Assembly: GCA_013360495.1 (NCBI GenBank)
Contig: JABWBM010000012.1
Coordinates: 1 to 36,272 of the forward strand
Reading direction: 5' to 3'
From: Planctomycetaceae bacterium
GTDB taxonomy: Bacteria > Planctomycetota > UBA8742 > UBA2392 > JABWBM01
Length of the DNA: 36,272 nucleotides
Position 1 is the first letter of the stretch. Each line of letters begins with the position of its first letter. Positions 1,841 through 36,152 of the stretch are shown one piece after another. A model generated the notes under the pieces. The model was not told the DNA's origin, ran no database searches, and was given only the letters and a program-made list of their open reading frames with translations. The translations under genes were made by a program, and so were the position numbers.

Positions 1841-2006
1841 CGTCACGCCACAGGCGTGACGGACCAACCAGAAGACAAATGTCATCCCCGCGAAGGCGGG
1901 GATCCAGAGTCCCAGAGTGGACTGTTGAAGGGCGTAAGACTGAAGACTGGATTCCCGCCTGCGCGGGAATGACATGAAAGACGTCACGGCACAGCCGTGA
2001 CGCTAC
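1841..2006. repeat. Composite nested hairpin repeat: family A palindromes (1841-1861, 1982-2006) flanking a family B inverted pair (1880-1907, 1947-1974)
   Basis: CGTCACGCC-ACA-GGCGTGACG; TGTCATCCCCGCGAAGGCGGGGATCCAG; CTGGATTCCCGCCTGCGCGGGAATGACA; CGTCACGGC-ACA-GCCGTGACGCTAC read directly. Confidence 0.9.
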
Positions 2007-20537: not shown

Positions 20538-20708
20538 AGACGTCCCGCGAGGGCGCGGGGGTTGTTCAAAAGTCACTTTACCGCGCCCCGCCGTCATGCC
20601 GACGAAAGTCGGCATCCAGTCCTTATGCGGGCCACTGGATACCGGCTTTCGCCGGTATGACGTTTTAAGAGGACTATTGAACAGCCCCGCGAGGGCGCGG
20701 GGCGCTAC
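20538..20708. repeat. Composite nested hairpin repeat: family A arms (20538-20562, 20684-20708) flanking a family B pair (20593-20619, 20635-20662)
   Basis: AAGACGTCCCGCGAGGGCGCGGGGG; GTCATGCCGACGAAAGTCGGCATCCAG; CTGGATACCGGCTTTCGCCGGTATGACG; GCCCCGCGAGGGCGCGGGGCGCTAC. Confidence 0.9.
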
Positions 20709-21385: not shown

Positions 21386-21474
21386 GTAGCGCCGTGCGCC
21401 CTCGCATGGCGTCATCCCCACCAAGAACGCATCGCGCTCCAACCAATCCGTCACGCGAGGGCGCGTGACGCTAC
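21386..21474. repeat. Family A inverted hairpin pair
   Basis: GTAGCGCCGTGCGCCCTCGCATGGCGTC (21386-21413) and CGTCACGCGAGGGCGCGTGACGCTAC (21449-21474). Fills the purN/ileS gap. Confidence 0.85.
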
Positions 21475-25984: not shown

Positions 25985-27244
25985 ATGATCCTTCGTGGAA
26001 CAGCATTGACGTGCGCCATGATCGCTGTAGCAAGCAGCGTCGCCCGGGCGTCCATCGACGACAACCGGCCCTTCGTTCGAGTCCCCATATCCAATCCCGC
26101 GCCTGATCCCTTCCACGCTCCCGCGCCGACACCGGACGACCTCAAGGTGCGCGCAGCCGTGGATCGAGGCCTCGCCTTCATTGTATCGCTCCAGCAACCC
26201 GATGGATGCTGGCGGAACGACGCCGGCCAGAAGATCGGCGAAGGCTACGTGCGCAACGAACTTGATGTCCCGCATATCGGCGTCACTGCGCTGTGCTGCA
26301 TGGCGCTTGTCGCTGGCGGCAACGCCCCCGATCAGGGGCGCTACGCTTCGAACGTCCGCCTTGGCCTCGATTTTCTGATCCAGAACCAGGACCGCTCTGG
26401 CCAGATCAAGGTACTCGGCTCGCGCATGTACGACCACGCGTTCGCTACGCTTTTCCTCGCCGAAATTTTCGGCATGACCCGCGATTCTCGTATCAAGAAA
26501 GCCCTGCAGGAGGCGACTGCCTTTATCGTCCGCAATCAAGTCGGCGTCACCATCAAACCCGACGGTGGCGGCCCCGAAGACGGCAATCAGGCCGATCCCG
26601 AACGGGACAAGGCAAGAACCGGCGACAACTGGGGCGGCTGGCGCTATGAGCCCAAACAGCTCGACGCCGATATGTCGATCACCGTCTGCCAATTGCAGGC
26701 GCTGCGGGCTGCGCGCAACGTCGGCATCGCGGTTCCGAAGGTATCGATCGAAGCGGCCCGGGAGTACGTCGTCGGGAATTACAACGACGACGACGGCAGT
26801 TTCGCCTATCAGCCGCAGTTCAGATACAACCGCGTCAGCTTCGCGCTCTCGGCAGCCGGCATCGTGGCATTGCAGTCCGCCGGACGTTACGACAGCTACC
26901 GCGATGGCGACAGGCTGATCGACCTGCGCAAGGCGCTCAATTACCTCCATCAGCAGCGTCCGGATCAAGCCTCGAATTTCCAGCCGCGCAATTGCGCCTT
27001 TGGCTTCTGGTACGGCCACTACTACGCGGCCCAAGCAGTCCATCAATATAAGGAAGTCAATCCCAAGATGTGGCAGGTCTGGAACGACAAGAACCGCCGC
27101 CATTTCCTTGCCATGCAGCGCGGCAATGGCTCCTGGATCGACGAGATCGGTACATGGGACGAGAAGCGCAACGCCTATGCCACCGCCATGGCCTGCTTGA
27201 TCCTGTCCATTCAGAACAATTACCTGCCAATCTTCCAGGCGTAA
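25985..27244 (+). CDS. Secreted squalene-cyclase/prenyltransferase alpha-alpha barrel repeat protein
   Basis: Signal peptide MILRGTALTCAMIAVASSVARA. Repeats such as DRGLAFIVSLQQPDGCWRND and GVTALCCMALVAGGN. Typical C-terminal ATAMACLILSIQNNYLPIFQ. Confidence 0.85.
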   Translation: MILRGTALTCAMIAVASSVARASIDDNRPFVRVPISNPAPDPFHAPAPTPDDLKVRAAVDRGLAFIVSLQQPDGCWRNDAGQKIGEGYVRNELDVPHIGVTALCCMALVAGGNAPDQGRYASNVRLGLDFLIQNQDRSGQIKVLGSRMYDHAFATLFLAEIFGMTRDSRIKKALQEATAFIVRNQVGVTIKPDGGGPEDGNQADPERDKARTGDNWGGWRYEPKQLDADMSITVCQLQALRAARNVGIAVPKVSIEAAREYVVGNYNDDDGSFAYQPQFRYNRVSFALSAAGIVALQSAGRYDSYRDGDRLIDLRKALNYLHQQRPDQASNFQPRNCAFGFWYGHYYAAQAVHQYKEVNPKMWQVWNDKNRRHFLAMQRGNGSWIDEIGTWDEKRNAYATAMACLILSIQNNYLPIFQA

Positions 27245-27289: not shown

Positions 27290-27371
27290 GTAGCGTCACG
27301 CCTATGGCGTGACGTCTTTGAGCCAACGCTTGATGTACGGACAAGACGTCACGGCGTAGCCGTGACGCTAC
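27290..27371. repeat. Family A inverted hairpin pair
   Basis: GTAGCGTCACGCCTATGGCGTGACGTCTT (27290-27318) and AAGACGTCACGGCGTAGCCGTGACGCTAC (27343-27371). Confidence 0.93.
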
Positions 27372-27479: not shown

Positions 27480-29363
27480 ATGGCCGAAGCGCCGACGTTG
27501 ATCGAACTCAAAGGCGTCAAAACCTACTTCCACACCGAGGGCGGCACCGTCAAGGCCGTCGACGACCTCACGCTTAACATTAAGGAAGGTCAAACCCTCG
27601 GCCTCGTCGGCGAGTCCGGCTCAGGAAAATCGGTCACCTCGCTCACCATCATGCGCCTGCTCCCCGAAGTCGGCGCCGCCATCGAAGCGGGCCAGATTTC
27701 CTTCCTTGGCCGCGACCTCGTGAAACTTCCCGAATCCGAGATGCGCAAGGTGCGCGGCAAAGAGATCAGTATGATCTTCCAAGAGCCAATGACCTCGCTT
27801 AACCCGGTGTTTACGGTCGGCGATCAGGTGATGGAAGCCATCCGCCTGCACCAGAAGACGAGCAAGGATGAAGCGCTCAAACGCACCATCGATCTGTTCA
27901 AGGAAGTCGGCATCCCCGACCCCGAACGCCGCGTCAGGAGCTACCCCCACGAAATGTCCGGCGGCCAAAAGCAGCGCGTGATGATCGCCATGGCGCTGAG
28001 TTGCAACCCGAAGCTCTTGATCGCTGACGAGCCGACCACGGCTCTCGACGTCACCATTCAGGCGCAGATTCTTGACCTGCTGCGCAAACTGCGCGACGAG
28101 CGCGGCATGTCCATCCTCTTCATCACCCACGACCTCGGCGTGATCGCCGAGATCGCCGACGATGTCGCGGTCATGTTCCGCGGCAAGGTGGTGGAGTTTG
28201 GCAGCGTGCGCCAGATCTACGCTAACCCGCAGCATCCCTACACCAAGGGTCTGCTTGCCTGCCGCCCGCGTTTGGAAACCAACTACCGCCGCCTCGTCAC
28301 CGTCGCCGACTACATGGACGTGAAGACCAATGAACAGGGCGACTTCGTCATCACCGAGAAGAAGCTCGATGAATCGCGCAAGCAGGCGCTGACCTCCAAG
28401 GGCCGCGGCCGATTGCTGCACCCGAAGTCGGAGCTCGAGCGCATCGGCCACCCTTATCGTGAGAGTGAACTTGCGCCGGGAACCACCTGTGTTCCCGAAA
28501 ACGAAAAACCCATGCTCGCGGTCGAGAATCTGAAAGTGTATTTCCCCATCAAGAAGGGCGTTTTCGCGCGCACCGTCGATCATGTGCGCGCCGTGGATGG
28601 CGTGAGCTTCAACGTCTATCGCGGCCAGACGCTTGGCCTCGTAGGCGAGTCAGGTTGCGGCAAGACCACTGCCGGCCGGGCGATCCTGCGCTTGATCGAG
28701 CCGACCGAGGGCAGAGTCCATTTCGACGGCTCAGACTTCCTCGCATTGAAAGGCGAGACGCTGCGCACCATGCGCCGGCGAATCCAGATTATTTTTCAGG
28801 ATCCCTATAGCTCGCTTAACCCGCGCATGACCGTGGAGGCGGCGCTCACTGAGCCGATGAAGGTCCACGGCATCGGCAATTCGCGTAACGACCGGCGCGA
28901 TCGCGCGGCGAACCTCTTGACCGAAGTGGGCCTCCTGCCCGAGCATCTGCGCCGTTACCCGCACGAATTCTCCGGCGGCCAGCGCCAGCGCATCTGCATC
29001 GCGCGCGCGCTCACCGTCGAGCCGGACTTCATCATCTGCGACGAATCGGTCTCTGCCCTCGACGTGTCGGTGCAGGCGCAGGTGCTTAACCTGCTCAAGG
29101 ACCTGCAGGAGGAACATGGCCTCACTTACATCTTCATCAGCCACGACTTGAGCGTCGTCAAATTCATGTCCGACATGATGGCCGTGATGAGCGACGGCAA
29201 GTTCGTCGAGTTCGGCCCGTCGGAGGCGATTTATGCTGCCCCCGCGCAGGACTACACGCGCCGCCTGATCAGCGCCATCCCGAGCGATTCGCTGGAGAAG
29301 ATCGAGAAACGCCAGCGCGACCGCGAAACCGCGCGCGCAAAACGCATATCGACGATCAGTTAG
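27480..29363 (+). CDS. Fused double-ATPase oligopeptide/dipeptide ABC transporter ATP-binding protein (DppD-DppF/GsiA-like)
   Basis: Two Walker A motifs ([16 protein letters not shown]) and two signature motifs ([16 protein letters not shown]), each with an oligopeptide-type C-terminal region. Confidence 0.95.
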
Positions 29364-34448: not shown

Positions 34449-34525
34449 TGGTGGGCGCACAGGGACTCGAACCCCGGACCCCATCCGTGTGAAGGATGTG
34501 CTCTAGCCAACTGAGCTATGCGCCC
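34449..34525 (-). tRNA. tRNA-Val (anticodon CAC), CCA encoded
   Basis: Minus strand GGGCGCATAGCTCAGTTGGCTAGAGCACATCCTTCACACGGATGGGGTCCGGGGTTCGAGTCCCTGTGCGCCCACCA folds as a full cloverleaf. Anticodon loop TTCACAC. Confidence 0.95.
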
Positions 34526-34629: not shown

Positions 34630-34699
34630 GTAGCGTCACGCGCCCTCGCGTGACGCTACGATCACGGACAAGACGCCATGCGAGGGCGCATGGCGCTAC
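34630..34699. repeat. Family A inverted hairpin pair
   Basis: GTAGCGTCACGCGCCCTCGCGTGACGCTAC (34630-34659, perfect 13-bp arms) and AAGACGCCATGCGAGGGCGCATGGCGCTAC (34670-34699). Confidence 0.92.
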
Positions 34700-36072: not shown

Positions 36073-36152
36073 GTAGCGCCACAATTTATTGTGGCGTCTT
36101 CTGACAAAGTATCGATCTCTCGTGGGGCCGCCACGATAAATCGTGGCGCTAC
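36073..36152. repeat. Family A inverted hairpin pair with AT-rich stem
   Basis: GTAGCGCCACAATTTATTGTGGCGTCTT (36073-36100) and GCCACGATAAATCGTGGCGCTAC (36130-36152). Confidence 0.88.

Follow-up and report, generated by a model that had tools for sequence, protein, structure and literature searches.

The doublet at positions 27290−27371 of the window (the whole stretch of 36,272 nucleotides that was analysed) occupies a 235-bp gap between the end of an ORF at 27244 and the start of an ABC-transporter gene at 27480. It consists of two inverted hairpins exactly as described in the initial annotation, each made up of a GTAG tag, a perfect 9-bp stem and a TCTT tail (Table 1). The same design had been proposed to recur at five other sites in the window; all of these were found by hairpin scan and by covariance model, some of their arms being decayed or mismatched. 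At 1837−2006 and 20538−20708, copies of a second family of REPs, belonging to the CGTC-1 kind, break up the GTAG doublet. One tRNA was the only Rfam match in the window. A tRNA-Val (CAC) gene is located at 34449−34525, some 100 bp away from the 34630−34699 doublet.

Table 1. Repeat arms, spacer and nested doublets in the window, with the match or comparison on which each assignment is based
Feature	Position	Strand	Evidence
Left REP arm, GTAG-CGTCACGCC-TAT-GGCGTGACG-TCTT	27290..27318	+	model R1, 45.8 bits
Doublet spacer, sharing partial homology (ATCAAGCGTTGG) with that of another same-type doublet	27319..27342		spacer comparison
Right REP arm, GTAG-CGTCACGGC-TAC-GCCGTGACG-TCTT (reverse strand)	27343..27371	-	R1, 43.0 bits
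REP arm, tag decayed to GTAA	1837..1865	+	R1, 24.5 bits; sequence
CGTC-1-type REP doublet (TGTC-ATCCCCGC..CCAG / CTGG..GCGGGAAT-GACA), nested in GTAG doublet spacer	1880..1974		sequence
REP arm, partner of 1837	1978..2006	-	R1, 41.9 bits
Decayed REP arm, only partial model match	20538..20562	+	weak, E 0.086
CGTC-1-type REP doublet, nested	20592..20662		sequence
REP arm with one stem mismatch	20678..20708	-	R1, 25.7 bits
REP arm with one stem mismatch	21386..21415	+	R1, 38.9 bits
REP arm, partner of 21386	21445..21474	-	R1, 43.5 bits
REP arm with GTAG at both ends	34630..34659	+	R1, 31.8 bits
REP arm CGCCATGCG-CCCT-CGCATGGCG, partner of 34630	34670..34699	-	R1, 46.0 bits
REP arm CGCCACAAT-TT-ATTGTGGCG	36073..36100	+	R1, 39.6 bits
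REP arm CGCCACGAT-TT-ATCGTGGCG, partner of 36073	36125..36152	-	R1, 35.4 bits

The genome is a 3.42-Mb draft in 256 contigs and is 91.8% complete. For a tRNA synthetase encoded in the window, the best named relatives come from two Planctomycetota MAGs, at 50% identity, and on this basis the lineage is tentatively called planctomycete-like. The exact 11-mer GTAGCGTCACG was present in 199 copies in the 3.42 Mb, compared to one copy of the reversed control. Arms were read in 801 kb, comprising the window and 60 stretches picked for carrying the 11-mer. A total of 155 arms were identified there, 98 of them with the exact 11-mer, and based on this proportion and the 199 copies genome-wide, the genome is estimated to hold about 290 arms. 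A perfect 9-bp stem was found at 137 of 240 GTAGCGYC anchors and at 0−2 control anchors of similar make-up. The plan of the arm is GTAG, a 9-bp palindrome that is nearly always perfect, a loop of 2−4 nt and then mostly TCTT. As in GTAG-tagged REPs, with their palindromes of 20−40 bp, each short palindrome is ended by an unpaired GTAG, and sub-families are distinguished by complementary stem changes.

These changes were quantified on 35 distinct arms, where 99.0% of the cells were paired, compared to 79.4% after shuffling, and 62 cells had both sides changed, compared to 18.6. Sliding the partner by 1−3 columns cut pairing to 16−55%. Stem pairs 1, 2 and 4 were invariant, and the remaining six of the nine showed double changes. 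The stems were not always paired, as had been thought from the window: 137 of the 155 arms are perfect and 18 carry one or two mismatches. The C:G to G:C stem change noted at 27290−27371 was confirmed; rather than a mutation peculiar to this doublet, it is a fixed distinction between left and right arm that 11 doublets have in common. The covariance-model scan of the genome that had been suggested returned a large and strongly covarying family, and not the few copies without covariation named as the contrary outcome.

In 30 relatives, the 11-mer occurred at 0−5 copies per genome, and the occurrences inspected were not hairpins. Model R1 gave at least 154 matches in the own genome and 0−18 in 40 relatives, all of these counts being lower bounds. 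The GTDB-220 contigs (own genome left out) contained no copy of the commonest exact 29-mer. Hairpins of the form GTAGCGCCACGGC..GCCGTGGCG, similar to the GTAG family but sparse (12−18 model matches per genome), were observed in two relatives (L108 and L109; genomes G014 and G006) and look like a related sparse family. Both genomes carry 24−28 Y1 transposase genes; no link between the GTAGCGCCACGGC hairpins and a Y1 gene was found in the two.

Neighbouring arms no more than 150 bp apart formed 44 doublets with GTAG outward, none with the tail outward and five tandem pairs (2+3), such that inverted pairs with a short spacer are over-represented (44 head-head versus five others), as in REPINs and BIMEs. 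Placement is mainly intergenic and not strictly so, as had been claimed: 142 of the 155 arms are intergenic, with about 18% expected (82% of randomly drawn positions being genic), and 12 lie inside the crude ORF predictions of a simple codon-based gene finder. High copy number, dispersal and mainly intergenic placement are likewise features of GTAG-tagged REPs. Gaps between convergent genes were enriched (29 of 97 units versus 54 of 330 gaps, Fisher P = 0.005). A pyrimidine (T or C) immediately preceded GTAG in 76 of 86 cases, 101 of 155 arms had a CT no more than 6 nt beyond the 3′ end of the stem, and none of 43 GTAG doublets showed a target-site duplication. The pyrimidine before GTAG, the nearby CT and the lack of target-site duplication fit the TnpA-REP rules (PMC8266576). 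Some spacers of doublets of the same type were homologous, with identities up to 0.81−0.86, which points to copying of the whole unit. The spacer of one GTAG doublet (L075:4151-4303) contained a long imperfect palindrome (CGAGGCAAGC..GCTTGCCTCG), possibly a further nested repeat.

The second family, GTCATNCC..GGNATCCAG, was present in 409 strict copies genome-wide, with none for the reversed controls. It exhibits a CGTC or TGTC tag, an 8-bp stem starting with AT, a 4-nt loop, a CCA tail and head-head dimers, all of which are shared with CGTC-1 REPs and the Neisseria dRS3 element (PMC3733652). Its sequence is unrelated to that of the GTAG family, within whose doublets it is inserted, the spacers being occupied at several sites; for 18 of 158 CGTC-1 arms, a GTAG arm lay no more than 40 bp away. 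CGTC-1 elements were seen in the window at 1880−1974, 20592−20662 and 36206−36233, and also at L049:504-610. Published CGTC-1 elements are mostly homodimers (PMC3733652), whereas 44 of 45 doublets here are heterodimers.

A RAYT/TnpA_REP gene had been predicted to lie elsewhere in the genome. None was found in the assembly, where the REP_Tyr_transpos model NF047646 had no match even at E≤10; no intact cognate RAYT, as is typical of REPINs and BIMEs, was thus detected in this 91.8% complete assembly. The sole Y1_Tnp match was a 73-residue IS200-like N-terminal fragment that retains the HUH motif and lacks the catalytic Tyr region. The gene for this fragment (L010:6192-6520, own contig C16) is bordered on both sides by inverted copies of a third palindrome, AAGAACATGGCCCACGGCTTTAGCCGTGGG, which differs from the GTAG palindrome and whose downstream copy coincides with the cut-off end of the gene. 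As the assembly is incomplete, a RAYT could be encoded on a missing contig; otherwise, the gene has been lost. E. coli provides known examples of REP populations that lack a RAYT (PMC8049555; PMC3733652). Many Y1 transposase genes were present in sister-family relatives, and several of their IS200-like Y1 loci had inverted GTAG hairpins with different sequences on either side, as expected for such systems. No strong R1 match was found beside any of the relatives' 29 Y1 loci, and thus no REPtron was identified.

The closest known systems, besides the CGTC-1 REPs matched by the second family, are of three kinds. With the GTAG-tagged REPs (PMC3733652, 2013), the family shares the GTAG tag, a short perfect stem with complementary variants, a loop of 2−4 nt, head-head dimers (mostly 20−100 bp apart) and an intergenic location with convergent or unidirectional placement; it differs in its own CG[TC]C-led stem, in the TCTT tail and in the absence of a REPtron. 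GTAG REPs have also been reported from the PVC superphylum, their heterodimers have been described, and they have been divided into 24 numbered families (PMC3733652); the assignment made here is to the GTAG class and not to a numbered family. REPINs (PMC3116915, 2011) and the BIMEs of E. coli are alike in being inverted REP doublets of about 55−110 bp with a variable spacer and two alternative folds, a long hairpin or a two-hairpin ‘clover’, the latter proposed as the form likely recognised by the transposase (PMC3116915). The ends of P. fluorescens REPINs are described as symmetrical (PMC3116915), whereas 43 of 44 doublets here have unlike arms and no RAYT was detected. In the TnpA-REP systems, GTAG serves as the guide and cleavage occurs at CT, with perfect short stems in group 3 (PMC8266576). 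The S. maltophilia REP and other group 3 substrates resemble the arms described here in the short perfect stem directly after GTAG and the CT by the hairpin (PMC8266576), but the family here has no known cognate enzyme.

Identical stems were found in only one of the 44 GTAG doublets, with 6.3 expected by random pairing (P = 0.006), and identical arms in one of 45 CGTC-1 doublets, with 6.4 expected (P = 0.007), the permutation tests taking no account of kinship among doublets. A preference for unlike arms in REP dimers had been reported before; here it applies to two families in a single genome in which SbcD was not detected. The commonest GTAG pairings were CGTCACGGC with CGTCACGCC in 11 doublets and CGTCACGCG with CGCCATGCG in 14. 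A code of left and right arms was considered and dropped, since in each family three stem types pair in every combination, giving triangles in the pairing graph; the rule is ‘different’ and not ‘left plus right’.

DNA folding was performed in silico on 37 perfect GTAG doublets, either natural or with one or the other arm duplicated. For the natural doublets, the minimum-energy fold was two separate hairpins in 25 of 37, and this fold was favoured over an explicit long hairpin by a median of 4.1 kcal/mol. With either arm duplicated, all 37 doublets folded into a single long hairpin, favoured by 13.7−14.0 kcal/mol. The longest unbroken arm-to-arm duplex was 6−11 bp in 42 of 44 doublets and would be 24−26 bp were the arms equal. 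Type-1 doublets, including the one at 27290, fold as an interrupted long hairpin (−27.1 versus −25.2 kcal/mol at 27290, a weaker case), and 31 of 45 CGTC doublets likewise fold in silico as a long hairpin, so the two-hairpin preference is not universal.

The preference for heterodimers among REPs ‘has no obvious explanation’, and escape from SbcCD has been suggested (PMC3733652). SbcD (TIGR00619) was not detected in the own draft genome, and no match above the cut-off was obtained in 16 relatives of the same order; the model matched in 13 of 14 control genomes. SbcCD is therefore disfavoured as the cause of heterodimers in this lineage, as far as a draft and one model can indicate. Tentatively, a general rule may be put forward that the arms of inverted REP pairs must differ, compensated changes keeping each hairpin perfect while abolishing arm-to-arm pairing. 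Such a rule could stem from the need for a two-hairpin fold in recognition or from an SbcCD-independent loss of perfect palindromes; it is a suggestion that may well prove wrong. There is a somewhat better, though still less than even, chance that the difference reflects mere descent of each doublet type from two unlike arms, with no selection. Two types, apparently copied as units, make up 25 of the 44 GTAG doublets, as descent would have it. Nevertheless, 16 of 17 GTAG and 13 of 14 CGTC stem-pair types are heteromeric, the triangles leave no simple left/right code to be inherited, and the same rule appears in two unrelated families.

The doublet at 27290−27371 very probably belongs to a GTAG-tagged REP family whose arms form REPIN/BIME-like head-head doublets, which is a known kind of element. 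The original proposal of a mobile REP/BIME-like element or a selected structure is in keeping with inverted pairs that are high-copy, mainly intergenic, strongly covarying and lineage-specific among 40 relatives. The arms might instead be host regulatory structures (mRNA 3′-end protection, attenuation, nucleoid or gyrase sites) that spread long ago and are immobile today. This is rather unlikely as the whole explanation, even though the spacers of type-1 doublets are near random (identity 0.46 versus 0.44 shuffled) while the stems are perfect and covary, convergent-gene gaps are enriched and the draft contains no transposase. Some 290 lineage-specific arms, doublets with fixed arm types and nested insertions point to a mobile origin, and the tag and tail motifs match the substrates of Y1 transposases. 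Domesticated use and mobile origin are compatible, and both can be true.

Intrinsic transcription terminators of a shared type would also appear as GC-rich intergenic hairpins, often between convergent genes. However, a terminator scan of 26800−27800 placed no site at either arm of the 27290 doublet, the stems are followed by TCTT and not by a T run, and a tag and stem sequence fixed over about 290 copies is unlike terminators; this explanation was discarded as highly improbable. A MITE-like element, mobilised by a DDE transposase acting on terminal inverted repeats, could similarly account for a short, high-copy inverted-repeat element without coding capacity. It was rejected as having almost no chance of being correct, since target-site duplications were absent from all 43 doublets and arms that each form their own hairpin next to an unpaired GTAG follow the pattern of Y1 and not of DDE enzymes.

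For the REP family, as no RAYT was found, the case for mobility is one of analogy rather than demonstration. By that analogy, each arm would fold into a hairpin in single-stranded DNA and be recognised by a Y1 (HUH) tyrosine transposase of the RAYT/IS200 type, with GTAG as the putative guide and the CT dinucleotide beside the hairpin as the cut site. The doublet might then be excised or copied as one unit by an enzyme that is presumably now lost, or missing from the draft. Less certain is the postulated need for the arms to differ by stem changes that are compensated, since two matching arms would pair with each other to give a single long, perfect hairpin. Such a fold could mask the two hairpins to be recognised, favour deletion of the locus, or do both.

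If true, the arm rule would answer why REP heterodimers predominate. That REPs are abundant in an uncultured lineage, planctomycete-like and without a detectable RAYT, is useful for understanding how REPs persist after loss of the enzyme. The 89 doublets in two families provide quantified material on the preference for unlike arms, together with a prediction on folding that is amenable to in vitro testing.
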